A stretch of 64,000 nucleotides of DNA from Enterococcus malodoratus ATCC 43197. Lineage in GTDB: Bacteria > Bacillota > Bacilli > Lactobacillales > Enterococcaceae. Below are positions 14,965 through 41,108 of this stretch, piece by piece. Position numbers and translations under genes: made by a program. The stretch spans positions 992,001 to 1,056,000 of the forward strand of contig NZ_KE136482.1 in the NCBI RefSeq assembly GCF_000407185.1, given 5' to 3'. Within the stretch, counting starts at the first letter, position 1, and the number at the start of each line of letters is the position of its first letter. A model generated the notes under the pieces. It worked only from the letters and a program-made list of their open reading frames with translations. It made no database searches and had not been told where the DNA came from.

Positions 14965-15624
14965 CTAAGAAACTTGACTAAACGCTTGATTTTTCAGCTC
15001 ATACACCACATCGCACGCTTTGGCGACTTCCTGTTCGTGGGTGACTAAAATAATACATTTCTGCTGTTCATGAGCGATTTCCTGAAACAGTCTGACGATT
15101 TCGCCAGAAGTTGCCTCATCCAAGTTTCCGGTTGGCTCATCGGCAACAATCAACTCATGTTCACAACATAAGGCACGCGTGATTGCGACCCGCTGTTGCT
15201 GACCACCAGATAAAAGGGTGACTTTTTTCTCAGCCAGCTCTTTAGTGATGCCGACCTTTTCTAAATTAGCCAGAGCATACGCTTTTTTATCTGCCTGCTG
15301 GCTTTGCGCAATCTCCATCGCGGTCACTACGTTGTCCACCGCGGATAAATACGGCAGTAAGTTATACGCTTGGAAAACAATCGACACATCCTTGCGGCGA
15401 TATTCCCGTAAGCCGATCTTTTTCAGCGAGGTATCGTTGTATAGAATCTCGCCGCTTTTCGGTGTATCTAGCCCTGCGATCAGGGATAAAAAAGTCGTTT
15501 TCCCTGACCCGCTGGTACCAAGAATGGCGTACATTTTGCCTTTTTCAAAAGTTAGATTGACCTTTTCAAATAATGGTCCGTTGTTTTCATACCAGTAACC
15601 TAAATCCTTCGTTGATAATGTCAT
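14965..15624 (-). CDS. ABC transporter ATP-binding protein (MacB/LolD type)
   Basis: ATPase of 219 residues for the adjacent FtsX-like permease. Walker A GTSGSGKTT (about 35-43), the signature LSGGQQQR, and Walker B with LIVADEPTGNLD (D-loop region) are all present. The permease stop lies 19 bases upstream of its ATG, and AAAGGAGG precedes it. MacB-type pairs usually export or extract lipophilic or peptide substrates across the membrane by mechanotransmission. The link to a sulfotransferase lipoprotein is by operon position. Confidence 0.92.
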   Translation of the reverse strand: MTLSTKDLGYWYENNGPLFEKVNLTFEKGKMYAILGTSGSGKTTFLSLIAGLDTPKSGEILYNDTSLKKIGLREYRRKDVSIVFQAYNLLPYLSAVDNVVTAMEIAQSQQADKKAYALANLEKVGITKELAEKKVTLLSGGQQQRVAITRALCCEHELIVADEPTGNLDEATSGEIVRLFQEIAHEQQKCIILVTHEQEVAKACDVVYELKNQAFSQVS

Positions 15625-15643
15625 AAAAAAATTCCTCCTTTGT

Positions 15644-17137
15644 CTAAGAAATCAAGATTTTCTTCGGATTTAATCGCAGAATCCCAGCTGATGATAAGAC
15701 GATCGAGAATAAACTGATGCCTAATCCGATCCCTGCAAGACTTAAAATTTCTGTCGGCTGCATTGAGATATTCAGTTCTTGGATTTCTTCTGATTGGGTA
15801 AATGGATTGCTGCCCATTTGACCGCCGCCGCGCGGACCGCCATTGCCGCCGCCAGGCGCTTGACCTTGACCAGGTCCGCCGTTTCCTGCTGCATCGGCTT
15901 GTCCATCGGTATTTTGAGAAGTCGTTTGCTGGCTCAACAATTGATTGCCCACCGCATTGCCCACAACGTTGCCGCTAGCCGCCGCGATACCTAAGGCAAA
16001 GATCATGCAGACAAAGATTTCCACGAAGAATTGTGAAATGACTTTGACCCGTGATTCGCCTAATGAAAGCAGTACACCAATCTCATATTTTCGTTCGCGG
16101 ATTGACAGCATGATGATCAGCGTTAAAATAATCACTCCAGCTGCCGCGACTAAGATCACGATATTTTTCGCAAAGCTCGAAACGTTGTTCAATGGCTGCA
16201 GCATTTGTTGGTACATTTGATCATTGGTTTCTAAACTAAAGGTATCTGTATCGATTAATTTGTTGGCTTGCTTAACGAAACTGTCCATATCTTTCGGATC
16301 GGTTAAGTTGTAAACAGCCGAATCGATCGTTTTTCCATCAGAACCAGCCAACGTATTGACCATTGTATAAGAAGAAAAGATCGTATTAGCCGGGTTCATA
16401 AAGTTGAAACGTGCACTCATACTATCGCCAGAGTTACTCGTTTTATAGATCCCTTTGACCGTCGCTTCGACGTCCTTATCGTTGCTGTCTTTAATTTTGA
16501 ACGTGTCGCCGACGCTTAAATCATTGGCTTCGGCTAAGCTTTGTTCGATCAGCACATTATTGCTGCCTTCATCTTTTGAAGTAATCGCCTCACCTTTTAC
16601 CAGACTGGCGGTTCCGGATGAAAATTCACTATACGCACTGCTTTGGGATACCCCTTTGATCTGAAAATCTCCTTGGCTCATGCCGTCAGGGGCACCTTGT
16701 CCGCCAAATCCGCTGGCCTGCTCATCAGATGATGCCTCTTCACTATCGCTATCACTCGAGATCGGTGTGATCCCTGTGCTTTTGTCCGCTGAGGTGCTAG
16801 CTTCAAATGAGTAAGATTTTACATTTGAAAGCTTGGCAATTTTTTCTGCGTCACTCAAATTAACGGGTGTCCGTTCAAAGCTGCCCGGATCAGGCCGCGT
16901 CGTTTCTTCATCAGAATCTGTTTCCGACTGCTGATTGAACATCGCCTCCCGATTGGTCGATAGCGTTACTGTCGCTCCGACACTTTTTTTCGCATTCGTC
17001 GTCGCCAGTTCGGCGCCGCTGCGGATCGTTAAGCCCGCTAAGACAAAAATTAAGATTGCTGAAAAGACGGCGATCATAATGATGCTGCGTCCTTTCTTTG
17101 CCCAAAGGCTTTGAGTGGCCCGTTTGATATAGTTCAT
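15644..17137 (-). CDS. FtsX/MacB-like ABC transporter permease
   Basis: Permease of about 497 residues: one N-terminal membrane helix after KKGRSIIMIAVFSAIL, a large extracellular domain, then three C-terminal helices (one with ILVAAAGVIILTLIIML, one after FFVEIFVCMIF, one at the end). Two low-complexity extracellular stretches stand out: a Ser/Glu/Asp-rich part and a Gly/Pro/Gln-rich loop (GGPGQGQAPGGGNGGP). The ATG at 17137 has AGAGGAGG upstream, so the longer frame to 17221 is rejected. It is the first gene of the operon and diverges from the two-component genes at 17373. A triple TTAAG repeat lies in its promoter region. Confidence 0.87.
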   Translation of the reverse strand: MNYIKRATQSLWAKKGRSIIMIAVFSAILIFVLAGLTIRSGAELATTNAKKSVGATVTLSTNREAMFNQQSETDSDEETTRPDPGSFERTPVNLSDAEKIAKLSNVKSYSFEASTSADKSTGITPISSDSDSEEASSDEQASGFGGQGAPDGMSQGDFQIKGVSQSSAYSEFSSGTASLVKGEAITSKDEGSNNVLIEQSLAEANDLSVGDTFKIKDSNDKDVEATVKGIYKTSNSGDSMSARFNFMNPANTIFSSYTMVNTLAGSDGKTIDSAVYNLTDPKDMDSFVKQANKLIDTDTFSLETNDQMYQQMLQPLNNVSSFAKNIVILVAAAGVIILTLIIMLSIRERKYEIGVLLSLGESRVKVISQFFVEIFVCMIFALGIAAASGNVVGNAVGNQLLSQQTTSQNTDGQADAAGNGGPGQGQAPGGGNGGPRGGGQMGSNPFTQSEEIQELNISMQPTEILSLAGIGLGISLFSIVLSSAGILRLNPKKILIS

Positions 17138-17190
17138 ACTGCTTCCTCCTCTAATCGCTTCGTCATTCTTCATGTGACTGTTTGTAGAAT

Positions 17191-17220
17191 AGTTAAGCTG
17201 GCTTAACCGAAGCTTAAGCA
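17191..17220 (-). promoter_or_regulatory. Triple TTAAG direct repeat upstream of the transporter operon, likely OmpR-type operator
   Basis: On the minus strand TTAAGCTTCGG, TTAAGCCAGC and TTAAC follow each other with 11- and 10-base periodicity and run into TATTCT, a possible -10. OmpR/PhoB-family regulators bind such helical-turn direct repeats. The divergent response regulator at 17373 is the obvious candidate. Confidence 0.5.
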
Positions 17221-17372
17221 CAACGCAAAAAGTTTTAAGGTTGATTTAGGAAAGCATGGTAAACTGAGTGAGTATTAATGAAGAAAGAACGCTCATTAGA
17301 TTTAGAGCTTTATAAATTTGTGTGCAAGCGGAAAATACTTTCCCTAACACGAAAAAGGAGTGCAAACGTTCG

Positions 17373-18047
17373 ATGATAAACCTATTAATAATAGAAGATG
17401 AAGCGACGCTTTCAGATAATATCAAGGAGATAATTAGTGACCTAGGAGAAATCAAGCAGGTCTATGATGGTGAAGAAGGCTTGTTTGAAGCAGAAAGCGG
17501 TGTTTACGATCTGATTTTGTTGGATTTGATGCTGCCGGGGAAAAACGGCTACGAAGTCTTAGCGGAATTACGGAAAAAGAATATCCAGACACCGGTCTTG
17601 ATCTTGACCGCAAAAGATAGTCTAGAGGATAAAATCACAGGATTTCAAAAAGGCGCCGATGATTATTTAACGAAACCTTTTTATCGCGAAGAATTGATCA
17701 TGCGGGTCAAAGCCCTATTGAAACGCTCGCTGGGATTGTTTGACGAGAATCAAATCGTCTATAAAAATATCAGCTGCAACCTCGCAACAAAAGAAGTAAC
17801 GGTCGACGATAACGTGCTGCCGATTCAAGGAAAGGAATTTGATCTCTTGGTTTATTTCATCCAAAATAAGGGCGTGATCTTAACCAAGGAACAAATTTTT
17901 GATCGCATTTGGGGCTTCGATTCTGATACGACCATCACCGTCGTGGAAGTCTACATGAGTCATTTACGTAAACATCTAAAACTGACCGGCGCCGATCAAT
18001 TGTTTAAAACATTGCGGAACGTCGGCTACATCTTACAAAAGGATTGA
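17373..18047 (+). CDS. OmpR-family response regulator
   Basis: Response regulator of 224 residues. The receiver domain has the acidic pocket in IIEDEATL (residues 6-9), the phospho-acceptor Asp in [10 protein letters not shown] (about 50-53) and Lys in DYLTKPF. A winged-helix output domain (about 130-220) ends in HLRKHLK...TLRNVGYIL. The ATG at 17373, with AAAAAGGAG 12 bases before, is preferred over the GTG at 17322. The kinase gene starts four bases after its stop. It is divergent from the transporter-ASST operon, which it probably controls. Confidence 0.92.
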
Positions 18048-18051
18048 CGCT

Positions 18052-19371
18052 ATGAACACAGAAATTTCGAGAAAACAACGCCTAAAATTTTTCTTCATCA
18101 ATGTCGCGGCCTTTGCCGTGATTTTCCTCCTGCTCGGGTTCATAACCCTGCAGCTGCTGCAAAGCTCCGCCTATCGGCAAACGGACCTTTCCTTAAAGAA
18201 GATGGCGGAAAGTGAGCATTTGATCCAAATGGAGATCAATCGCTACCAGCAAGGCAATCCGTTTTTGTCTCAGCAGCCGCCGAATGAACAGGACATGGAC
18301 CAGATTCCCGACGGAAAAAATCGGTTCAATACTCAAATCATCCTGTGGTCAAAGGATGGCAAAATTTTGAATAAGGAAGTGATCGGCGGGCGCTTCACTG
18401 AATTAGAAAAGTTAAGCTTGAATACGAAGCAGCTCGATTCCATCCAAGCCCTGAATCTGAAGAATTCGTCAGATTCAGCGCAAAAATTGTCCTTCCGTTC
18501 CTATACGATCAAGGCCGAGCAAAACAACGGGATCGCCTATATTCAATTTTTGGCCAACACCAACCAAATCGCGGATTCGATGAAGACCTTCGAAACAATT
18601 TTGATTCTCTGTATGATCGCCTTTTGGCTGATTTCTATCGGGATAAGCTTCTATATTTCAAAAATGAACATGCAGCCGATCATGAATTCTTGGCGCAAGC
18701 AGCAGGAATTTGTCGAGAATGCTTCCCACGAATTGCGCACGCCGCTGGCGATCATTCAAAACAGCCTGCAGCAATTGTTCACTAGACCGGATCACACTAT
18801 TCTGGAAGAATCCGAACCGATCGCCCAAGCGTTGAATGAGACGCGGCGGATGAATAGCTTGACCGAAGACCTGCTGATTTTGGCCCGCAGTGATTCTAAT
18901 CAGCTGCTTTTGCAAAAAGAAGACGTCGATCCAAAGGCCTTCATCCAGCAATTAGCCCAGCCCTTCCAAGAAATCGCTGAAATGAACGACAAACAATTCA
19001 TTCTGGAAAACTTTGCGGATCAGTCGATAGCGGTCGATGAGAAACGCATCCATCAGGTCCTCGTGATCTTGCTGGACAACGCTTTGAAATATACCGAGGC
19101 GAAAGAAAAAATCGTCCTGCAATCTGCGATTTCTAATGATAATTGGCTGATTGAAGTCAAAAACAACGGGCCATCCATCAGCGACGAAGACAAGAAACAC
19201 ATCTTCGAACGCTTTTATCGGGAAGATCGCTCCCGCTCTAAAGAAACCGGCGGCTACGGCTTAGGCCTGGCCATCGCCAAACAAATCATCAACCAGCATA
19301 AAGGCAAGCTGACCGTTCGTGATTGGCAGCCAAAGGGCGTCGTGTTCCAAATTCGATTGCCGCTGAAATAA
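18052..19371 (+). CDS. Sensor histidine kinase
   Basis: Membrane kinase of 439 residues. Two membrane helices (about 13-33 and 180-200) enclose an extracellular sensor domain of about 145 residues rich in Gln and Asn. The H-box is NASHELRTPLAII with the phospho-accepting His, the N-box is DNALKY, and the G-boxes include GGYGLGLAIAK. It is cotranscribed with the response regulator and followed by a strong terminator. The ligand is unknown. Confidence 0.92.
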   Translation: MNTEISRKQRLKFFFINVAAFAVIFLLLGFITLQLLQSSAYRQTDLSLKKMAESEHLIQMEINRYQQGNPFLSQQPPNEQDMDQIPDGKNRFNTQIILWSKDGKILNKEVIGGRFTELEKLSLNTKQLDSIQALNLKNSSDSAQKLSFRSYTIKAEQNNGIAYIQFLANTNQIADSMKTFETILILCMIAFWLISIGISFYISKMNMQPIMNSWRKQQEFVENASHELRTPLAIIQNSLQQLFTRPDHTILEESEPIAQALNETRRMNSLTEDLLILARSDSNQLLLQKEDVDPKAFIQQLAQPFQEIAEMNDKQFILENFADQSIAVDEKRIHQVLVILLDNALKYTEAKEKIVLQSAISNDNWLIEVKNNGPSISDEDKKHIFERFYREDRSRSKETGGYGLGLAIAKQIINQHKGKLTVRDWQPKGVVFQIRLPLK

Positions 19372-32169: not shown

Positions 32170-33396
32170 ATGCGAAAAGATGTCTTAGAAGGAGTCTTAC
32201 GACACATTATGAACGATATTCAACCTAACTATGCAGCCATGGCCAAGCAATATAATTGTGATTACCGAACAGTCAAGCGTTACTATGAAGCTGGAACTAA
32301 AGGGGAAGTAGAACAGATCAAAAAGAGACAATCTTCTGCTCCTCTTTTATTAAGCGGTTTTGAAGAAATTATTAAAGATAAAATGGAGTTAAGCTGTTCC
32401 GCTTCTTCAATTTATTATTTTATTAAGAAAAAAGGATATCAAGGTGGCTATACCACCGTCAAACGATATTGTCGGAACTATCGAGAAAAGCGTGTAAAAA
32501 AGGCAACCATTCGAATTGAAACGACGCCAGGTCTTTCTGCTCAAGTCGATTGGAAAGAAAATATTAAGATGGTGAGTAAACATGGTGAAGTCTTTTACTT
32601 CAATCTTTTTCTATATATTCTAGGCTATTCTCGCATGAAATACTTAGAGGTAACCTTTGATCGAACCCAAGCGAATGTCTTCAATTGTTTGGTCAATGCG
32701 TTTGAGTACTGCGGGAATGGTGTTCCTCAAGAAATTTGGTTTGACAATATGAAAACAGTTGTTGATAGAAGTAAAAGCCAATTTGGTCAAACCGTTTTTA
32801 ACGAAAAATTTCGTCAATTTGCTAAAGATGCTGGATTCAATCCGATTGCTTGTCGCCCTTTTCGTCCACAAACCAAAGGCAAAGTTGAAGCTTTAGCTCG
32901 TACTGTTAACCGCTTAATGGTCTTTAACTACGAGTTTGAAAATGAGCAGGAGCTAAAACGAATCGTCTATGAGTTTATGAATGACTTAAATAATGAACGT
33001 TCTCAAGCAGTGAATAATCATCCCTCTAAGCTTCTTATAGATGAACAATCGGTGTTGCGTCCTTTCAATCGTTTAGAATTAGTCAGATATGTTTCTAGAA
33101 CCCAACACGTAATTAGAAAAGTTTCCATTGAATCCATGGTCCAATATCAAAACTCAAAGTATTCTGTTCCCGTGAAATATATTGGTAAAGAGGTAACTTT
33201 AGATGTCCGTAAGGACAGTCTATTCATTTGGTATGGCCATCAATGTATTCGCTCGCACCCATTAAGCAAAAAAACCTTAAATTATCAACGTGATGACTCT
33301 CTTGAGATTCTTCGATCTGATGTCTTCAAATACTTAGAAGACGAAGAGTTGGAGCGCTTTGTAGAAGAAAATTTAGATGCTTACGATGAATTATAA
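32170..33396 (+). CDS. istA: IS21-family transposase IstA
   Basis: DDE transposase of 408 residues. An N-terminal HTH region (YNCDYRTVKRYYEAG) is followed by the integrase core with catalytic residues in SAQVDWKENI (D), EIWFDNMKTVV (D) and PQTKGKVEALARTVN (E). The C-terminal DNA-binding part contains YSVPVKYIGK. AAGGAGAG precedes the ATG. istB starts 11 bases after its stop. Confidence 0.95.
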   Translation: MRKDVLEGVLRHIMNDIQPNYAAMAKQYNCDYRTVKRYYEAGTKGEVEQIKKRQSSAPLLLSGFEEIIKDKMELSCSASSIYYFIKKKGYQGGYTTVKRYCRNYREKRVKKATIRIETTPGLSAQVDWKENIKMVSKHGEVFYFNLFLYILGYSRMKYLEVTFDRTQANVFNCLVNAFEYCGNGVPQEIWFDNMKTVVDRSKSQFGQTVFNEKFRQFAKDAGFNPIACRPFRPQTKGKVEALARTVNRLMVFNYEFENEQELKRIVYEFMNDLNNERSQAVNNHPSKLLIDEQSVLRPFNRLELVRYVSRTQHVIRKVSIESMVQYQNSKYSVPVKYIGKEVTLDVRKDSLFIWYGHQCIRSHPLSKKTLNYQRDDSLEILRSDVFKYLEDEELERFVEENLDAYDEL

Positions 33397-33406
33397 GGAG
33401 GCTCAT

Positions 33407-34168
33407 ATGTCAAATTACCATCAGTTATTAAATCAATTATCAGATTTAAATCTTACCTGTATCAAAGAAATTTTACCTGCCCATTTAGATGAAGTAGCTA
33501 AAAATGAACAATCTCTAGTTGATTCTTTATTTGAATTAACACATCAAGAAATTAGCTATCGTAGAAAGGAGACCCAAAGAAAAATTTTAAAACGGGCAAT
33601 GTTTCCCTATCATAAACGCCTTCATGATTTTAACTTTGATTTTCAACCCAAAATCAAAAAAAGTGAAATTCAAGATTTAGTGACATTACGCTTTTTAGAC
33701 ACGTATGACAACCTTTTATTCATTGGAAATAGCGGTGTTGGAAAAACTCATTTAGCCGTTTCAATTGGTTTAGAGTGTATTGATAGAGGGCAGAGCTGTT
33801 TATTTATCACTAGTACAGAACTGGTTAATCGACTTATCCGGGCACATAAACGTGGGACAAGTGATACCATGCTCAAAAAATATGCGAGCTATTCTGTATT
33901 AATTATTGATGAAGTCGGGTATCTCCCCTTCTCAAAAGAAGGATCTAACTTACTGTTTCAACTAATTAATATGCGATACGAAAGAAAATCAACGATTATT
34001 ACAACGAATATTCCTCTGTCTCAATGGTCCGAAATTTTTGGTAATAAGAAATTGACTAATGCTTTATTGGACCGATTGGTCCATCATTCTAAAATTATTC
34101 AAATTACAGGACCTTCCTATCGAATGAAAAGTTATAGTGAAACGAAAGGAAAAGAAACGAAACGATAA
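33407..34168 (+). CDS. istB: IS21-family helper ATPase IstB
   Basis: DnaC/DnaA-like AAA+ protein of 253 residues that assembles with IstA for target selection. Walker A is IGNSGVGKTHLA, Walker B is SVLIIDEVGYLPF, and sensor 1 is ITTNIPLSQW. The ATG at 33407, directly after AAGGAGG, is the start; a longer frame from 33377 overlaps istA and lacks a ribosome site. Confidence 0.95.
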   Translation: MSNYHQLLNQLSDLNLTCIKEILPAHLDEVAKNEQSLVDSLFELTHQEISYRRKETQRKILKRAMFPYHKRLHDFNFDFQPKIKKSEIQDLVTLRFLDTYDNLLFIGNSGVGKTHLAVSIGLECIDRGQSCLFITSTELVNRLIRAHKRGTSDTMLKKYASYSVLIIDEVGYLPFSKEGSNLLFQLINMRYERKSTIITTNIPLSQWSEIFGNKKLTNALLDRLVHHSKIIQITGPSYRMKSYSETKGKETKR

Positions 34169-34266: not shown

Positions 34267-35076
34267 TTATATTTCGCTATTTTCAAACGTCCGGTTTTCT
34301 TCCAGCAAACCAAGAGATTTCTTTGCATAGAAGTAACAGACAATCAAAAGAATTGAGATCGTTAGTATTCCTGTCTCGCCTACTAGATACGGTTTGTTTT
34401 GACCGCTAATAGATTGGTCCAGTAAAACTTGAATGACGAAATTATGTGTAAAATGGAAAAATGCTGCTGGCCAGACGCTTTTTGATTTGAGACTTAAATA
34501 GGACATCGGATAAGACATGGCGATACATTGGATAACATAGATTGGGACTTGATACCAAATCGGAATACTAGACACATAGCCTGTAATTATCAGCGGCAGA
34601 TGCCAGATAGCCCAAATACAGCCCGTGAGAAATGCTCCTTTGTGATAACCAAAAAGTTTGAACATTTCACGATTCAAGAAACCGCGCCAGCCGATTTCTT
34701 CGCCTAAAGCCGTAATAAAAAAGATCGATACATACAGGATCAGGATCAATGGCTGACTTAAAAGAGTCCCGAGTGTATTGCCTGTAATGACATCACTTCC
34801 CCGCATAATCAGATAGATTCCATAAGACAAAAGACTATATAAAAGTGGAATCCCTATGCCTAATAACACGTAGTTCAGTTTAAAAGCTTTCAGGTTAAAA
34901 ATCTTATCCTCGCGATAATAAAGCCGCTTAACGATTATCGCAGCTACTCCTGGACACCACATTAATAGATTTGCCATATTCATTAGTTGATAGTTGATAA
35001 TAAGGACATAGAAGATTGAGCTTAATGCAAAGCAGATAATCAGATATGCGATCACTGATTTTTTGGTAGTTTTCAT
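34267..35076 (-). CDS. CPBP-family intramembrane metalloprotease (Abi/CAAX type)
   Basis: Membrane protein of 269 residues with about eight helices. The active-site motifs are EEIGWRGFL (about 125-133), a His in WAIWHLPLI, and FHFTHNF near the end. CPBP proteins occur as bacteriocin self-immunity factors and near ABC exporters. It is the last gene of the ATPase-permease-CPBP unit, 63 bases after the permease. The IS21 right end lies 38 bases beyond its stop, so its original terminator and downstream neighbour are lost. Confidence 0.87.
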   Translation of the reverse strand: MKTTKKSVIAYLIICFALSSIFYVLIINYQLMNMANLLMWCPGVAAIIVKRLYYREDKIFNLKAFKLNYVLLGIGIPLLYSLLSYGIYLIMRGSDVITGNTLGTLLSQPLILILYVSIFFITALGEEIGWRGFLNREMFKLFGYHKGAFLTGCIWAIWHLPLIITGYVSSIPIWYQVPIYVIQCIAMSYPMSYLSLKSKSVWPAAFFHFTHNFVIQVLLDQSISGQNKPYLVGETGILTISILLIVCYFYAKKSLGLLEENRTFENSEI

Positions 35077-35139
35077 AAAAGTCTCCTTTCGAAAGTTGAA
35101 ATTTTTATTTGTTAAAAGCCCACGATTTTCATTTCTTTT

Positions 35140-35931
35140 TTATGTGACGTCTGCGTTTGAATACAGTCGTGATCCAATAAACAGCAGAAGTGCATCCAAG
35201 CTAATCCAAAATAGGAGAACCATACCCACATACATTAGAGGAAACTCCCAAAATCTAGACAGCATAGAAAATGCGGACAGCGGGTCACAAAGTGTCAGCC
35301 ACTCAGCTTTCGGAAATAGCTGATAAATTTGATAAGTGAAGGATGGAAAGGCGATCAAGCCGATTAAATAAATCGCAATGGTGATACTTGTTTTCTTGGT
35401 AAAAACAATCAGCCCATTGGCGATAGCAATCATCCCGATATACAACGGAACAGATAAGATTATCTGAACTAAAATTCTCATGACTTGAGTTAGATTGAAA
35501 CCGCCAAATCCAAATAAAATCGTTCCTGCGACGAAACTTACTACTAAACATAACAGCGTATAAGTTAGGCAACATAGAAGTCCAGTAATACATTTTGCGA
35601 AATATACCTTCTTGCGATCAACAAAATAGGACAAGCTGTTGCGAATGGTCCCGGTAGAATATTCTGCACCCAGCACGGCTACAGCAAAGGCCAGAATAAA
35701 GAATGGGAATAGGCCATCATCCCGCATCTGCTGAACAAACTCCGCGCCATTTCCAGATAATGATCTTGCAGCACTGGCAGTAGATTGAACACCCACACCT
35801 CCAAAACCGCTGCTGGAGCCGAGCATGTTGACGCCTGTAATCACGATGATGATCATTCCCGCCAGAAAGACATTGCGAACTGCGGCCCCTTTTTTTATGC
35901 GAAAAATATCTGATTGAATGATGTTGGTCAT
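35140..35931 (-). CDS. ABC-2 type transporter permease (BcrB/LanE-like)
   Basis: Membrane protein of 263 residues with six predicted helices and a Gly/Ser-rich extracellular loop after the first helix. The topology matches permeases of bacitracin and lantibiotic resistance transporters; EYSTGTIRNSLSY is a common motif of this permease type just before the third segment. It begins 13 bases after the ATPase stop. Confidence 0.82.
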   Translation of the reverse strand: MTNIIQSDIFRIKKGAAVRNVFLAGMIIIVITGVNMLGSSSGFGGVGVQSTASAARSLSGNGAEFVQQMRDDGLFPFFILAFAVAVLGAEYSTGTIRNSLSYFVDRKKVYFAKCITGLLCCLTYTLLCLVVSFVAGTILFGFGGFNLTQVMRILVQIILSVPLYIGMIAIANGLIVFTKKTSITIAIYLIGLIAFPSFTYQIYQLFPKAEWLTLCDPLSAFSMLSRFWEFPLMYVGMVLLFWISLDALLLFIGSRLYSNADVT

Positions 35932-35944
35932 TGGTTATTCTCCC

Positions 35945-36862
35945 TCATGCTATTTCATCTATTACGCTGATGAAATAGTCTTCCAAATTTATTTTTGTTT
36001 CGTTTGATGAATAGATCTTTATGCCGTTCGAACTCAAAAGTTCGATCACTTTTGACGTGTCCTTATGGAAGTCAAAAAGCCGGATTTCCTCTGTAGAATG
36101 AACCTCGATTTTTTTCGTATTCATCGCCGAGTGAATGATTTCTTCAGCCTTCACGGCGCTGCTCACCTTCATAGTGATATAGCCCTGCGTATTTTTCTCT
36201 AGCTCTTCTTTGGTAAATTCCTTCAACAGCTCACCGTGATGAATAATGCCGTATCTCGTGGCTATTTGAGTAAGCTCTGAAAGAATATGGCTGGAGATGA
36301 GAATGGTGATTTTTTTCTCGCGATTTAGCTTACTGATAATTTCACGAAATTCGATCATTCCCGTCGGATCTAATCCATTGATCGGCTCATCTAGGATCAA
36401 TAATTCAGGCTCGCCCATGATTGCTAACGCAAGACCCAAACGCTGCTTCATTCCAAGAGAAAACTGGTTGAACTTTTTACTTCCAGTCGCATCCAGATTG
36501 ACTAATTTTAGAACACGCTCGATTTCATTTTCGGCTGTGATCTCTCGTTGGATGCGGTAATATTCCAGATTTTCCCGTGCCGTCATTTTAGGAAAGAAAG
36601 CAGGCGTTTCGATCATTGCGCCAATTCTTTTCCTTGCTAAAATTAACTCCCGCTCGTCACTGCTTCCAAAAAGTTCCAGATTTCCGCTTGTTGGGTGGAT
36701 CAGTGAAGTGATCAAACGTAAGAGGGTGGTTTTGCCGGCTCCATTTTGTCCGATAAATCCGTAAATATCTCCCTGATTCAACGTCATATTTATATTTTTT
36801 ACACCTGCGCCTCCGGAATATTTTTTTATTAAATTGTTCGTTTTTAAAATCGGTTCCCTCAT
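35945..36862 (-). CDS. ABC transporter ATP-binding protein (BcrA/LanF-like)
   Basis: ATPase of about 305 residues: Walker A GQNGAGKTT, signature FSLGMKQRLGLA, Walker B LLILDEPINGLD, His-switch in ILISSHILSEL. A C-terminal domain of about 85 residues is typical of BcrA-type ATPases for bacitracin or lantibiotic resistance. The ATG at 36862 follows GGGGAG at eight bases, so an upstream in-frame start at 36889 is rejected. It is first in the operon and driven by a promoter of the shared TTCATTATAG type at 36910-36935. Confidence 0.9.
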   Translation of the reverse strand: MREPILKTNNLIKKYSGGAGVKNINMTLNQGDIYGFIGQNGAGKTTLLRLITSLIHPTSGNLELFGSSDERELILARKRIGAMIETPAFFPKMTARENLEYYRIQREITAENEIERVLKLVNLDATGSKKFNQFSLGMKQRLGLALAIMGEPELLILDEPINGLDPTGMIEFREIISKLNREKKITILISSHILSELTQIATRYGIIHHGELLKEFTKEELEKNTQGYITMKVSSAVKAEEIIHSAMNTKKIEVHSTEEIRLFDFHKDTSKVIELLSSNGIKIYSSNETKINLEDYFISVIDEIA

Positions 36863-36909
36863 TTGATGACTCCCCTTCTGTTTGCACACCTTTGAAATGT
36901 GGTGGTCTT

Positions 36910-36942
36910 ACTATAGCGATTCAACCTATAATGAACCTTGAA
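36910..36942 (-). promoter_or_regulatory. Regulon promoter A (ABC operon)
   Basis: Minus strand: TTCATTATAG, ten bases (GTTGAATCGC), then the -10 TATAGT at 36910-36915. A second half-repeat GTTGAA directly follows the first, giving the direct-repeat spacing of an OmpR-family site. The inferred transcription start is about 40 bases before the ATPase ATG. Confidence 0.65.
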
Positions 36943-36963
36943 TCGTCATTTTATTTTGACGCA

Positions 36964-37001
36964 AAAAAATCTATTCATTTGTTTCAACGAATAGATTTTT
37001 T
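36964..37001 (-). terminator. Terminator between the 28-residue peptide gene and the ABC operon
   Basis: Perfect 13-bp stem (36964-36976 with 36989-37001) with A/T tracts on both sides. It makes the small peptide gene an independent transcript. Confidence 0.8.
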
Positions 37002-37084
37002 AAATTTTTATAGTCCGTTTTCTCTTTTTTTAGAGGAAAGATAGCCTTATTTACGCCTAATATATTCTGACCGCCTCCAATCAC

Positions 37085-37171
37085 TTATTTAGTACCGTTG
37101 CGTCCTTCTGAAAAAATCACGTTAATGATGATGGTGAGAATCAATGACAGTACGATGGATCGTATAAACAT
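37085..37171 (-). CDS. 28-residue hydrophobic membrane peptide
   Basis: Small ORF with an ideal AAAGGAGG site seven bases before the ATG. The product starts MFIRSIVLSLILTIIINVIF and ends in a polar tail SEGRNGTK, so it is a single membrane helix with a short hydrophilic end. It has its own promoter of the shared type (37214-37252) and its own terminator (36964-37001). This makes it a deliberate gene rather than chance. It might be a signal or accessory peptide of the kinase or transporter, or a toxin-like peptide. I do not recognise the family. Confidence 0.65.
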   Translation of the reverse strand: MFIRSIVLSLILTIIINVIFSEGRNGTK

Positions 37172-37213
37172 CTCTTTCACCTCCTTTTCGATATTGCCCT
37201 TGATATGACTGTC

Positions 37214-37252
37214 ACTATACCTCGGCTAACTATAATGAACCTATAATTCAAG
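37214..37252 (-). promoter_or_regulatory. Regulon promoter B (28-residue peptide)
   Basis: Minus strand: TTGAATTATAG, then GTTCATTATAG, ten bases (TTAGCCGAGG), then the -10 TATAGT at 37214-37219. The geometry TTCATTATAG-N10-TATAGT is identical to promoters A and D. The inferred start is about 36 bases before the peptide ATG. Confidence 0.65.
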
Positions 37253-37284
37253 AGACAATTTATAGTTAGCGAACTTCTCCAAAA

Positions 37285-37318
37285 TAAAAAACACCCGCCA
37301 ATCAAAATGGCGAGCGTT
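37285..37318 (-). terminator. Terminator of the two-component genes
   Basis: 11-bp minus-strand stem with two G-U pairs (37308-37318 with 37290-37300), then six T residues. It lies 15 bases after the kinase stop. Confidence 0.75.
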
Positions 37319-37332
37319 CTAGCGAATAATTT

Positions 37333-38640
37333 TTATTTTTTTGAAAACTGCTTCTTTAGCGGCAAACGAATTGTAAATACCGTTGTCTCATTCACTGTAC
37401 TTTCGACGTCAATTTTTCCACCTAGTTGATCAGCGATACCTTGCGCAATGGATAATCCTAAGCCATAGCTGCCTTCATATTTTTGCCGAACCTCATTCGT
37501 ACGGTAAAATCGATCAAAAATCTTCGGCAGATCCTCATCGGTAATCCCATCACCGGTATTTCGAAAAGTGATTATCCCCTCACGTCCTTTTGCTTCAACT
37601 GAAACATCGAACGCCCCATTTTCATTCGTGTATTTGCTGGCATTATCAATGAAAATATCGAAAAGCTGCTGCAATAAGACCTCATCAGTTTTTACTATTA
37701 CTTTTGCCATGTTTTTATTAATTAAAATCTTTTTTTCTGCGAATTTCGTTTCATAATTGGACAAGGCGTTCGTAAGCAGCTGATCGATTTGTACATTGGT
37801 AATAGTCAATTGATCAAAGCTGTTATCGGCTTTGGCGACTGTAAGCAATTTGTTCACCAGTCCATTCATTCGTTTGGTTCCGCTGGAAATATTGTTCAGC
37901 CATTTTATCTGCTCACTGATCGTCTCTTCTTGACTAGAATAAAGCACATCGACATTCGTTGAAATGATGCTTAGCGGTGTCTTTAACTCATGAGAAGCAT
38001 CCGTTATAAACTGCTTTTGCTTTTTCCAAGCCTCTTCGACTGGATGAAGCGCACGATTCGTAAAGAAAATAATGACTAAAAAGAAGAAAAGCAGTAATCC
38101 GATCCCTACGATAATTAGAGTCATCGCCAGAGAAGACAAATTCTTTTTCGAGTCCGTGATATCTAAAAAACGCATAAGATACGTCTCATCATTCTCGCCG
38201 TTAGTCTGATCACTACTGCCATAATCAAAATTTGCAATAGCTGGAGCGACAACGTATTGCCATTCCCGTCCGTTCATTTTTATAACGCCGCCGTCCTGAT
38301 TCTTCCAAGCATATTTTGCTGCCTTGTTGTATTGATCCTTTGTCAGCTTCAGGGCAGAATCGATCATGATTGGCTTGCCGGATTTGTTCACCAGCATATT
38401 GAAATAAACCCCGGCCCCCGTCACGATGCGGTTGATTTCCATGGCATCCTCGCTCTTTTCATCGAAGGTCACCTTGCCGCCAGTGATCCGCAGCTGCTCC
38501 GCCTGATTCAATTTTTCGTAGTTATCCGACTTTTGATTCAGATAGGTCGTGACAAAAATAGCTGTGAAAGCCGCAATCAAAATAATCGCCACAAGCCCTG
38601 TCGTCATCGCGATCAATCGTTTCCTAAACTGATTAATCAT
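37333..38640 (-). CDS. Sensor histidine kinase of the BcrAB-like module
   Basis: Kinase of 435 residues. Membrane helices at about 8-30 and 170-195 flank an extracellular sensor of about 140 residues. The H-box is DASHELKTPLSII, the N-box is DNASKY, and the G-boxes are RNTGDGI and YGLGLSIAQGIA. The ATG at 38640 overlaps the response regulator stop (ATGATTAA) and has AAGGG upstream; a GTG at 38649 is an alternative. It is cotranscribed with the regulator. The ligand is unknown; the context suggests a membrane-active antimicrobial. Confidence 0.92.
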   Translation of the reverse strand: MINQFRKRLIAMTTGLVAIILIAAFTAIFVTTYLNQKSDNYEKLNQAEQLRITGGKVTFDEKSEDAMEINRIVTGAGVYFNMLVNKSGKPIMIDSALKLTKDQYNKAAKYAWKNQDGGVIKMNGREWQYVVAPAIANFDYGSSDQTNGENDETYLMRFLDITDSKKNLSSLAMTLIIVGIGLLLFFFLVIIFFTNRALHPVEEAWKKQKQFITDASHELKTPLSIISTNVDVLYSSQEETISEQIKWLNNISSGTKRMNGLVNKLLTVAKADNSFDQLTITNVQIDQLLTNALSNYETKFAEKKILINKNMAKVIVKTDEVLLQQLFDIFIDNASKYTNENGAFDVSVEAKGREGIITFRNTGDGITDEDLPKIFDRFYRTNEVRQKYEGSYGLGLSIAQGIADQLGGKIDVESTVNETTVFTIRLPLKKQFSKK

Positions 38641-39325
38641 CGGCGTCACCCTTAGAAAAATCCAAACGATAACCTAGATTCCGCACCACTTTGATCTGAG
38701 TCATACTCTCGACTTGCTTCAATTTCTTTCTTAAAAGAGAGACTTGCATCTCCACATGATTGTATTCAGCATCCGAATCATAACCCCAAACCTTCTCTAG
38801 GATTCGATCCTTAGAAGATAGCTGCGGATAATTAGCAACTAAGATTTCTAAAATATTCGCCTCTTTTCTAGTTAAGGCTAGTTCGCCAGTTTGAGTTTTT
38901 AAGCTCAGATTGTAGGGATTCAGTTCAAAATCACCAAAGGAAAGAATCCCATCGATTTTGAATTCGCCTTTTCGTCTGCTCAAAGCCTTCAGCCGAGCCA
39001 GCAGCTCTTGATATTGGAACGGTTTGCAGAGATAATCGTCTGCGCCACTGTTTAAACCGTCCACGCGATCATCCAGTTCTCCCTTTGCGGTCAACATAAG
39101 GATCGGAATTTCGATCCCAGCTTCCCGCGCTTCTGTTAAAATCGTCAAACCATCCTTTTTCGGGAGCATAATATCTAAGATTGCCAAATCATAAACTCCT
39201 GAAAGTAAGCAATCGAATCCATACTCGCCATCTTCTGCTATATCAACTAAGTATCCTTGTTTTTTTAAAATTTGAGCCGTTGCTTCGGCCAGCATCGCCT
39301 CATCCTCAACTAGTAAAAGTTTCAT
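38633..39325 (-). CDS. OmpR-family response regulator of the BcrAB-like module
   Basis: Regulator of 230 residues. The receiver has VEDEAM (acidic pair), the phospho-acceptor Asp in LAILDIMLPKKDG and the Lys in DYLCKPF. The winged-helix domain ends ...QVSLLRKKLK, VVRNLGYRL. Its own promoter is of the shared TTCATTAGAG-N10-TATAAT type, so it is likely autoregulated. It is the best candidate for binding all four such promoters in this module. Confidence 0.93.
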   Translation of the reverse strand: MKLLLVEDEAMLAEATAQILKKQGYLVDIAEDGEYGFDCLLSGVYDLAILDIMLPKKDGLTILTEAREAGIEIPILMLTAKGELDDRVDGLNSGADDYLCKPFQYQELLARLKALSRRKGEFKIDGILSFGDFELNPYNLSLKTQTGELALTRKEANILEILVANYPQLSSKDRILEKVWGYDSDAEYNHVEMQVSLLRKKLKQVESMTQIKVVRNLGYRLDFSKGDADD

Positions 39326-39358
39326 CCATCGTCCTCCTTAAAACTGAGACTCTTTTTA

Positions 39359-39390
39359 ATTATAACGAATGAACCTCTAATGAATCTTGA
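39359..39390 (-). promoter_or_regulatory. Regulon promoter C (two-component genes)
   Basis: Minus strand: TTCATTAGAG, ten bases (GTTCATTCGT), then the -10 TATAAT at 39359-39364. The TTCAT half-site repeats 11 bases later. The inferred start is about 27 bases before the regulator ATG. Confidence 0.65.
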
Positions 39391-39489
39391 ATTACAAAAA
39401 TAACCCGCATAATAAAATATTTTTTTAACTATCTGATAGAAAACTTGTGTTCATTTACAGCGAATACCATTTATCTCCCCAAACTACAG

Positions 39490-39516
39490 CTTCATTATAG
39501 GTTCACCTATTATAGT
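39490..39516 (+). promoter_or_regulatory. Regulon promoter D (Asp-box repeat protein)
   Basis: Plus strand: TTCATTATAG, ten bases (GTTCACCTAT), then the -10 TATAGT at 39511-39516. The inferred start is about 25 bases before the ATG at 39548. Confidence 0.65.
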
Positions 39517-39547
39517 GAGCGCATAAAATTGAAATGAGGTCGTTCGT

Positions 39548-40519
39548 ATGAAAAACAGAAAACCAACCAGCAGCTCCTACAAATCACACTCCCCTTGGTC
39601 CACTGTTCTAAGAGATATTCCGTTCACAATTAGAGTCATCGTGCTCACAATAGTGATTGGGCTTTCCGTTGTATCCTACAATATCGGCAAGGCAGTAACT
39701 GAAGCAAAAGCTACTAGTCAAACAGAAGTAACCTTTCCAAGCAAGCGAACCAAAAAAACAACAGTAGACGATGTAAAAATCCGGCGGAACAATGATCGTT
39801 GGGAATTTTCTTCTGATGAAGGAATCTCGTGGTCAACGACACCACCTGATGGTATTTACGAAGACGCCGATGGTCGCTTACGCTACAAAAACTCAAAATC
39901 AGAAAGGATCAATAATACCTCTAGTGAAGATACTTTCAAATTCCCGTTCAGTGACAAAAAGGGAAATAGCATGATCATGAAACGAGAAGAAGATAAATGG
40001 AAATTCTCTTCTGACGGCGGAAAAACTTGGTCAGAAGAAAAGCCTGAAGGTGTGGAAATCGATAAAAATGGGAAATTAACTTGGAAAAGTACGGATGGAA
40101 AAAAAGTTTCTGAATTTGATCCAAAAGAAAATCAGTGGAAATATTCAGAGGATGGCGGAAAGACTTGGTCAGATCCGTTAAAAGAGATAGAAGATTGGCT
40201 CGAGAACGGTTTTACTGTTCCCGTTGAAGACGGTGTTTCGATGAAAATCAAAGATGGAAAAATCCAGTATTCGACTGACGGAGGAAAAACCTGGAGCGAA
40301 GAGGCTCCTGAAGGCTTTAATGATAAAATACAATCCGTGATCACCAAGCAATCCGATGACGGAAAAACCCTTTACTCTACCGATGGAGGAAAAACTTGGT
40401 CGGAAGAAAAACCCGAAGGCTACGAGATTCCCAGTGTACAAGATATCTTAGATTCTATCCCGGATGATCTTGTACCAAAGGACGAAGATTTAGGCGAAGG
40501 TGAATCTACAGCAATTTAG
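39548..40519 (+). CDS. Membrane-anchored protein with five Asp-box (BNR-like) repeats
   Basis: Protein of 323 residues with one N-terminal membrane helix (about 25-46, after a basic stretch) and an extracellular repeat region. Five copies of an Asp-box type motif are visible: SSDEGISWS, SSDGGKTWS, SEDGGKTWS, STDGGKTWS and STDGGKTWS, most followed by EE-x-PEG. Asp boxes (S-x-D-x-G-x-T-W) occur in beta-propellers of sialidases and sortilins, but five short repeats without an enzymatic domain suggest a small binding or structural surface. A GAGGT site precedes the ATG. It is transcribed divergently from the two-component genes behind a promoter of the same type, so it is an output of the module. 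Confidence 0.72.
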   Translation: MKNRKPTSSSYKSHSPWSTVLRDIPFTIRVIVLTIVIGLSVVSYNIGKAVTEAKATSQTEVTFPSKRTKKTTVDDVKIRRNNDRWEFSSDEGISWSTTPPDGIYEDADGRLRYKNSKSERINNTSSEDTFKFPFSDKKGNSMIMKREEDKWKFSSDGGKTWSEEKPEGVEIDKNGKLTWKSTDGKKVSEFDPKENQWKYSEDGGKTWSDPLKEIEDWLENGFTVPVEDGVSMKIKDGKIQYSTDGGKTWSEEAPEGFNDKIQSVITKQSDDGKTLYSTDGGKTWSEEKPEGYEIPSVQDILDSIPDDLVPKDEDLGEGESTAI

Positions 40520-40528
40520 CCAAAACAA

Positions 40529-40573
40529 ACAGGAAAGCCTCCCCTCGTTCACGATGAAATGGAGCTTTCCTGT
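40529..40573. terminator. Bidirectional terminator between Asp-box protein and GNAT genes
   Basis: 10-bp stem (ACAGGAAAGC, 40529-40538, with 40564-40573) extended by a bulged CTCC/GGAG pairing, with T-rich sequence on the plus side. Confidence 0.65.
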
Positions 40574-40589
40574 ATTTATTTTGAAAATC

Positions 40590-41108
40590 CTACAGCATCA
40601 AACCCATCACATATAAATGATAGTATTCACCATCAATCAGCGTAGTATTCTTCAATTCTCCTTCAATTTGAAAACCAAATTTCTTATACAGTTCGACTGC
40701 CATTTGATTATCTGTTCGAGTATCCAGCTGAACTTTGGTCGTCACGCCGTTCGATTTAGACCACTCTAACAGCTGGCGGATCAATTCACTGCCGATACCT
40801 TGACCTTGATAGTTTTCAGTAACCACAATACCAAGCTCTCCACAATGTCTTGCCTTGATTTTGTTTCCAGAAGTAATCGTTCCGATACCGATAATCTGAT
40901 CATCTGCCACCGCTAAAAGCATGACCGAATTTGGCTGCTGTTCGGTACTTATGATGTTCGCTTTTTGCGCTTCCACATCTAACGGATACTCATCCTCCGT
41001 AAAACTCAAATAGGTCGTCTCACCGCCGACACGATTATAAAAAGCGACGATCTCCTCCGCGTCTTCCAAGACAGGTTTCCGGTAGACTACTTTGTCCTTC
41101 AAATTCAT
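40590..41108 (-). CDS. GNAT-family N-acetyltransferase
   Basis: Acetyltransferase of about 172 residues. Motif A is LGIVVTENYQGQGIGSELIRQLL with the acetyl-CoA pyrophosphate loop QGQGIGS. The later VELYKKFGFQIEGEL block is typical of RimJ/RimL-like or YhhY-like enzymes. The substrate is unknown. The ATG at 41108 has AAAGGGG six bases upstream; the longer frame to 41150 is rejected. Confidence 0.87.
   Translation of the reverse strand: MNLKDKVVYRKPVLEDAEEIVAFYNRVGGETTYLSFTEDEYPLDVEAQKANIISTEQQPNSVMLLAVADDQIIGIGTITSGNKIKARHCGELGIVVTENYQGQGIGSELIRQLLEWSKSNGVTTKVQLDTRTDNQMAVELYKKFGFQIEGELKNTTLIDGEYYHLYVMGLML

Follow-up and report, generated by a model that had tools for sequence, protein, structure and literature searches.

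A two-component system of Enterococcus malodoratus with four like promoter boxes and an Asp-box envelope protein as candidate third component

Within a 64,000-nucleotide stretch of the Enterococcus malodoratus ATCC 43197 genome (contig NZ_KE136482.1, positions 992,001 to 1,056,000 of the forward strand; hereafter the window), we analysed a block of seven genes at window positions 34267-40519. It encodes a response regulator and its sensor kinase, an exporter with an intramembrane protease, a small peptide and a surface protein with Asp-box repeats, and it carries four promoters with a common box. We hold it fairly probable that these genes form a small local regulon around a CiaRH-like two-component system whose third component is the Asp-box envelope protein.

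Genes and promoter boxes of the locus

A seven-gene block had been predicted here from the sequence, and the list of open reading frames together with Pfam returned all seven genes just where they had been placed (ABC, ATP-binding cassette; aa, amino acids):

34267..35076, minus strand: CPBP-family (Rce1-like) intramembrane protease gene, 269 aa, PF02517 E 9e-16, with EEIGWR and FHFTH motifs
35140..35931, minus strand: ABC-2 type permease gene, 263 aa, PF12679 E 3e-10
35945..36862, minus strand: ABC ATPase gene, 305 aa, best NCBIfam model lantibiotic-protection ABC (TIGR03740)
37085..37171, minus strand: peptide gene, 28 aa from the ATG at 37171; hydrophobic and probably single-pass, as judged by eye
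37333..38649, minus strand: sensor histidine kinase gene, 438 aa, HisKA and HATPase_c
38633..39325, minus strand: OmpR-family response regulator gene, 230 aa, PF00072 and PF00486
39548..40519, plus strand: Asp-box protein gene, 323 aa, PF02012
36910..36942, minus strand: box 1, exporter operon, TTCAAG-N5-TTATAG-N10-TATAGT; 46.1 bits, the top of the window
37214..37246, minus strand: box 2, peptide, TTATAG-N5-TTATAG-N10-TATAGT
39359..39391, minus strand: box 3, regulator-kinase operon, TTCAAG-N5-TTAGAG-N10-TATAAT
39484..39516, plus strand: box 4, Asp-box gene, CTACAG-N5-TTATAG-N10-TATAGT

The four promoters had been predicted to share one sequence, placed ten bases from the -10 element, and this proved to hold far above chance. 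The pattern TTCATTATAG (TTCATTAGAG at one site), followed after ten bases by TATAGT or TATAAT, lies at 36907(-), 37211(-), 39356(-) and 39491(+). Derived from these four sites themselves and searched with up to three mismatches, it has four matches in the window where 0.24 are expected, a number reached in none of 100 shuffles. In the whole genome (4.62 Mb, five contigs) the four sites are the only matches at zero or one mismatch. At up to two mismatches there are 14 matches, compared with 19 for the reversed pattern, and the upstream half-site is absent from all four that we inspected among the other ten. When 20 genomes of the genus were scanned at up to one mismatch, 21 of 32 matches fell at this locus, among them every exact match (11 of 11); the remaining 11 off-locus matches compare with 13 for the reversed pattern. 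A chance origin of the motif is thus rejected by the window shuffles, the genome scan and the scan of the genus.

A second half-site is located 11 bp upstream of the first, which gives TTNNAG-N5-TTNNAG-N10-TATART as the full box. Scored with a 33-bp matrix trained on 25 own-genus sites, the four window boxes included, these boxes reach 31-46 bits; nowhere else in the 64 kb is more than 3.5 bits attained. The boxes end 32-48 bp upstream of the start codons. The local regulon with a common box beside an OmpR-family regulator, as originally predicted, is thereby supported. Two of its attributes stand in part. Its self-contained character holds at the strict motif threshold, and weaker sites elsewhere are possible. 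The lack of a usual -35 agrees with the promoter scan, which at its threshold paired no -35 with any of the four -10 elements, but that scan as such performed no better than shuffles (17 sites versus 16.3).

Three hairpins follow genes of the block:

36964..37001, minus strand: A/U-rich hairpin, possible terminator, 3' of the peptide gene; 16-bp stem, -15.6 kcal/mol, z -5.6
37288..37320, minus strand: terminator-like hairpin 3' of the two-component operon; 13-pair stem and T tract, fold z -2.9
40529..40573, plus strand: hairpin, possible terminator, 3' of the Asp-box gene; -22.7 kcal/mol for 40510-40590, z -4.4

Their positions behind the kinase, peptide and Asp-box genes are consistent with separate transcripts; the terminator scan of the window was overall at chance (six found, 5.5 expected).

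The hallmark of CPBP proteases is the motif EExxxR. The CPBP protein carries EEIGWR at residue 126 and scores 58.4 bits against a Pfam cut-off of 22.4, as befits a CPBP/Rce1-like member. The ATPase scores 218.4 bits against TIGR03740, below the curated cut-off of 309.75, and so falls short of membership in the lantibiotic-protection ABC family. Among the Pfam and NCBIfam matches listed, no bacteriocin family appears for any of the seven proteins. The peptide's ATG at 37171 is preceded by a Shine-Dalgarno-like GGAGG; the alternative GTG at 37180, chosen by the open reading frame lister, would give 31 aa. By eye, the kinase spans the membrane twice and has an outer sensor, some 130 aa long, with a conserved FLD(V/I)T at its end; Pfam gave no HAMP match in it.

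Conservation of the boxes and of the Asp-box gene

We next compared seven related loci of the same genus (L018-L024), leaving out L038 as a close relative of L022. Regulator, kinase and Asp-box gene are present in all seven. ATPase and permease occur in six; the seventh locus, L023, ends at a contig end. In L022 (genome G005) the ATPase match (1076-1982) is split between two frames, and the CPBP relative beside this locus (L140:4339-5031) is diverged and likewise split over frames, which may mean that this copy is decaying or that the assembly is faulty. CPBP relatives with 76-84% identity accompany L018-L021, and one in a related plasmid record (L141) is 49% identical; none was found in L024 or in L023 up to its contig end. 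Boxes with at most three mismatches precede most of these genes in the related loci, and the Asp-box promoter of L024 was found by the matrix alone, at rank three in its locus. Loss of the motif from orthologous loci had been named in advance as evidence against the regulon; the motif is conserved there.

Relatives of the peptide were detected in three of the seven loci (L018, L019 and L024). In L018 and L019 the peptide has its own box and is 64.5% identical, and in L024 its relative lies behind a MacB-like gene; neither peptide nor box was found between kinase and ATPase in L020 and L021. Such conservation at the amino acid level argues against reading the peptide transcript as a small RNA, similar to the streptococcal cia-dependent small RNAs (csRNAs), that does not act through the peptide. 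The box, the -10 element, the short transcript (presumably about 240 nucleotides) and the closing hairpin do resemble csRNA genes, and we regard this alternative as improbable. L024 has two further boxes (L024:3560-7062), in front of an HlyD-MacAB-like exporter operon and a small lipoprotein-like gene; the regulon in this genome may be larger.

Asp-box protein and kinase (E at most 1e-100) are present in the same eight of the 20 genus genomes. Since this co-occurrence may in part reflect species relationships, the argument for linkage rests on distant loci. These were sought with a profile of Asp-box relatives (in 105 family, 398 phylum and 398 class genomes) or by protein search, in which at least 7999 candidates were scored and the best 82 listed, gene neighbourhoods being read for a minority of these. 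The Asp-box protein was found in 11 of the 105 family genomes and, beyond the genome of origin, in G330 and G236 among the phylum genomes and G842 and G824 among the class genomes. A weak match in G051 (E 4e-4), within a frame of 2150 residues, was not counted, and the other 38 genomes of G842's family contained no further Asp-box locus.

In all genomes that yielded the Asp-box protein to either search at its threshold, 15 of 15 (eight of the same genus, three of the sister genus and four distant Bacillota), a regulator-kinase pair adjoins its gene. The arrangement is divergent in 11 genomes; the four distant ones have Asp-box gene, regulator and kinase in a row. In G001 the kinase frame stops after position 432, near the usual end. 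The linked regulators are 71% (G099), 56% (G330) and 54% (G842) identical to the window regulator, compared with 38%, 45% and 44% for the next best regulators by score in these genomes. Evidently, the Asp-box protein, predicted to be an unusual output, is rather a core partner that is shared with distant loci. Exporter, CPBP protease and peptide were seen in the genus alone and are better described as own-genus additions: no close relative of exporter, CPBP protein or peptide was detected in the sister-genus loci L050-L052 (best ATPase about 30%).

With the own-genus matrix, both promoters of L050 and L052 take ranks one and two, and in L051 only the Asp-box promoter was recovered. In all four distant loci (13.2-19.0 kb each, both strands) the top match is a box whose start precedes the Asp-box gene by 71, 74, 85 or 101 bp, and the runner-up scores 10.8-18.8 bits less. 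Judged by sequence, all 15 genomes thus encode, beside regulator and kinase and behind a like box, a component placed as a third component of the CiaX type would be. In one locus (L053:10838-10975) a strong inverted repeat followed by T residues, noted by eye, separates the Asp-box and regulator genes; it may act as an attenuator and so raise the level of the Asp-box protein above that of the regulator.

The Asp-box protein begins with an N-terminal signal anchor (by eye) and has five Asp-boxes, at residues 88, 154, 200, 242 and 277; its distant relatives start with an apparent signal peptide, again by eye. Asp-box repeats, a RIP motif and a sialidase domain are the hallmarks of sialidases (GH33). 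The RIP string is absent from the window protein, BNR_2 stays under its Pfam cut-off and Pfam reports no other sialidase domain, so that an identity as a sialidase or other glycosidase is not supported. Profile matches in the PDB, all of them partial, are to sialidases for the most part and otherwise to a cellobiohydrolase and HCF136. A Pfam match to the type VI secretion immunity family Tli3 (41.1 bits against 27) covers 53 residues including one Asp-box; we read it as probable repeat similarity and set a role in type VI immunity aside.

Asp-boxes are also found within kinases. A search with residues 60-200 of a Brevibacillus-like kinase (L057), whose own record is among the hits, returned 14 relatives of its sensor, nine of them with an Asp-box (SxDxGQTW) inside the sensor and five without. 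The nine belong to Brevibacillus, Lysinibacillus and one Brevibacterium strain, or are unlabelled, and may go back to a single event. The L057 locus has a separate Asp-box gene in addition to the Asp-box in its kinase sensor.

These sensors bear on the question whether the Asp-box protein is an output only, that is, an acidic shield, a trap for cationic peptides or a glycan binder, the kinase sensing the compound directly. A separate box precedes its gene, which presumably responds together with the exporter, its outer part is acidic (net charge -18 over residues 52-323), as it is in three of the four distant relatives, and many two-component systems of the wider sensor family have no Asp-box protein. 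Yet the linkage of the Asp-box gene to the two-component system extends further than that of the exporter, the Asp-boxes inside kinase sensors speak for a part in sensing, and one distant relative, with a net charge of +13, argues against a charge trap. A role as mere output therefore appears rather unlikely to us.

The regulator, its boxes and related kinases

Streptococcal CiaR promoters follow NTTAAG-N5-TTTAAG, and a published csRNA search required ten bases from the second repeat to TATAAT and discarded mismatches at the G positions (PMC3091779). In spacing and in both G positions the four boxes agree with the published ones; their middle bases differ. All 25 listed sites retain the two Gs, the spacings being fixed by the search itself. 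The direct repeat overlapping -35, predicted as one of OmpR type, can hence be described more exactly as a CiaR-type layout. The letters are another matter: with TTWAAG twice, TATAAT and up to three mismatches, three of the four sites match and seven of 100 shuffles give as many, so the plain CiaR consensus was rejected as a description of the sites. By sequence, the layout of the boxes is that of CiaR and their letters are not.

Nor does the regulator group with CiaR. In a midpoint-rooted tree of 41 regulators, the 15 linked to Asp-box genes form one clade (98/91). Streptococcal CiaR, recognised by its published recognition helix, groups with L071, another regulator of the window genome (99/86). 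In a second midpoint-rooted tree, with seven rows added and L019 omitted as a near-copy of L018, CiaR falls with L071 and L072 (100/99), and 14 Asp-box-linked regulators form a clade (100/99) together with L135 and L095, the latter broken. The window regulator lies outside the CiaR clade and was rejected as a CiaR orthologue. Its recognition helix, HVEMQVSLLRKKL, departs from the definition of the CiaR helix, VVEVYVSKVRKKL with V/I changes only (PMC3091779), in having VEMQ where CiaR has VEVY. Across the loci, VEVY regulators (L057, L058, L136-L139) are accompanied by at least one box with TTTAAG or ATTAAG as a half-site, and VEM(Q/H) or VEI(Q/H) regulators have TTCAAG, TTACAG, TTATAG, TTAGAG, TTAAAG, CTAAAG and similar half-sites; L135 (VQVY, TTAAAG twice) fits this trend poorly. 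The sequences are thus suggestive of a correlation between recognition helix and half-site letters.

The window contains a second, CiaR-like system at 14965-19371, with a regulator gene (17379-18047), a kinase gene (18052-19371) and a divergent ABC operon of FtsX/MacB type. At 17186-17217(-) there is a TTAAG-type box with TATTCT (one match, 0.02 expected).

Could the four boxes be read mainly by another regulator, such as this one? Both types of box have the same half-site spacing and the same ten bases to the -10 element, and the second regulator, encoded on the same contig, is the one that groups with streptococcal CiaR (99/86). Nevertheless, the TTAAG-type box precedes that system's own ABC operon and the four boxes deviate from it in the middle bases; in distant loci boxes of the four-site type adjoin regulators of the window regulator's clade, and the recognition helices differ. 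Reading mainly by another regulator is in our opinion very improbable.

The kinase sensor was also sought by itself. A sensor profile (E at most 1e-8) matched in 16 of the 398 phylum and 36 of the 398 class genomes, 45 different genomes in all. The notion that every related sensor is paired with an Asp-box protein was rejected, as most related kinases have no Asp-box neighbour in the flanks covered. L135-L139, read over 7.0-8.3 kb, contain no Asp-box. In L136-L139, from Paenibacillus-like and other genomes and outside the clade of the window regulator, the two best full-matrix matches are located near the regulator start. L137 and the related L114 and L093 have a divergent VTC-domain-like gene (by eye) as neighbour, and in L137 the boxes lie between it and the regulator. 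These boxes in an outside group without Asp-box suggest that the layout is probably older than the Asp-box partnership and that partners differ between clades. L135 (850-7940) has boxes before the regulator and before two FtsX-like permease genes with an ATPase; further downstream is an HtrA-like protease gene, named by eye.

Several of our findings weigh against the Asp-box protein as a third component behind CiaR-type boxes. Of 46 loci from 39 of the 45 genomes with a matching sensor, only five have an Asp-box neighbour, all five being rows of the profile; flanks were 1.5 kb and, for partial matches, extended only slightly past the regulator gene. Two members of the regulator clade, L135 and L095, lack an Asp-box gene. 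Same-layout boxes occur in a sister clade without Asp-box genes, so that a box alone does not connect the Asp-box protein with the kinase. Compared letter by letter, the boxes match CiaR sites poorly, and once the matrix is stripped of its spacer columns, two of the distant loci have their site at rank one and the other two at rank two. The sensor-embedded Asp-box comes from one lineage, found with a query that already had an Asp-box. Finally, the AlphaFold2 model of the Asp-box protein is weak, with short strands and a mean predicted local distance difference test score of 53.

Proposed circuit and comparison with known systems

Conserved boxes of a common layout and an Asp-box gene linked to the two-component system can be read from the sequence itself, and we arrange them into the following circuit. 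The phosphorylated regulator would bind the two TTNNAG half-sites 11 bp apart, whose placement would leave the -10 element as the only further promoter element needed. It would activate, rather than repress, four transcripts: its own operon (positive feedback), the Asp-box gene, the ABC exporter with the CPBP protease, and the 28-residue membrane peptide. The Asp-box protein, anchored outside the membrane, may contact the kinase sensor as co-sensor or feedback regulator, a role modelled on those of CiaX in the CiaRH system of Streptococcus mutans or of LiaX in enterococcal LiaFSR. The exporter might clear the membrane-active compound behind the signal, or products of the damage. Only the families of exporter, CPBP protein and two-component system point to such sensing of, or resistance to, a membrane-active compound.

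CiaRH resembles the window system in its promoter layout (two TTNAAG-like half-sites, N5, ten bases to -10; PMC3091779), in its OmpR-type regulator, membrane kinase and self-regulation (PMC3091779, PMC8317062) and, in S. mutans, in a third component, CiaX, encoded in the operon (PMC8317062). It differs in that the window regulator is outside the CiaR clade and its genome has a separate CiaR-like regulator, in the half-sites, which in window-type boxes are mostly TTCAAG, TTACAG, TTATAG or TTAGAG, and in the regulon, four local units detected here against 15 promoters of CiaR in S. pneumoniae (PMC3091779). CiaX is a small double-glycine peptide with an SD-domain (PMC10574481), unlike the anchored protein with five Asp-boxes. 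In two of four streptococcal CiaR loci (L066 and L070) an open frame immediately upstream of CiaR would encode an anchored protein rich in Gln, Gly and Asn (L066:773-1378; L070, reverse strand, 736-1356 counted from its end); the L066 frame has no Pfam match.

Calcium represses ciaXRH through CiaX, which has a calcium-binding domain (PMC8317062). By analogy, the window system might sense the general state of the envelope or a divalent cation such as calcium, and not a drug-like compound, the exporter being a secondary recruit. Outputs do vary by lineage, with VTC-domain genes (by eye) in Paenibacillus-like loci and exporters elsewhere. On the other hand, exporters apparently recur as outputs, their genes standing behind such a box in three settings: window-type loci, the extra MacAB-like operon of L024 and L135. 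We consider envelope or cation sensing possible, though doubtful.

The enterococcal LiaX is likewise an envelope protein controlled with its system, LiaFSR, and is thought to bind antimicrobials and modulate the kinase; it has a putative adhesin domain in place of Asp-boxes (PMC10269926). No LiaF-type gene is among the seven. We take the kinase and regulator families of LiaFSR to be different from those of the window system. BcrAB and LanFEG-type self-protection transporters with their own two-component system are presumably comparable in ATPase, ABC-2 permease, CPBP protease and neighbouring two-component genes. The window ATPase is nearest the lantibiotic-protection ABC subfamily, whereas here there is one permease, the score is under the NCBIfam cut-off, and Asp-box protein and peptide are extra. 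BAS0540-BAS0541 of Bacillus anthracis is the closest CiaRH homologue there, and its regulator bound CiaR-type direct repeats in gel shifts, but its predicted regulon is a scattered gene list (PMC4938410); the words 'BNR' and 'sialidase' are absent from the main text of that paper. Among the open-licence papers listed, judged by title and opening of the abstract, none links an Asp-box or BNR protein with a two-component system.

More generally, we tentatively propose, with chances somewhat below even, that Asp-box proteins are a new class of third components of two-component systems across Bacillota. Their Asp-box hairpins, arrayed on a secreted or anchored protein, would dock on the kinase sensor, or be built into it, and read envelope ligands for a CiaR-box regulator, the local outputs (exporters, peptide) being swapped between lineages. 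Some Gram-positive proteins now named sialidase-like may then be sensor partners, not enzymes. The locus offers a compact testable case, with one kinase, one regulator, four one-box promoters and a surface protein whose motif recurs inside the kinase sensor in other genera. It would extend the CiaR-type promoter architecture to local regulons outside streptococci and supply a natural series in which recognition helices and half-sites vary, suited to the study of regulator specificity.

The surroundings of the block deserve a brief mention. IS21-like istA and istB genes (by eye; window 32170-34168) end about 100 bp from the CPBP gene. The window contig measures 1.188 Mb, and the E. raffinosus plasmid pF162_2_1 (1.186 Mb) has the related locus L038; LCP-like and epimerase-like neighbours are common to both loci. 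The module may therefore reside on a megaplasmid.

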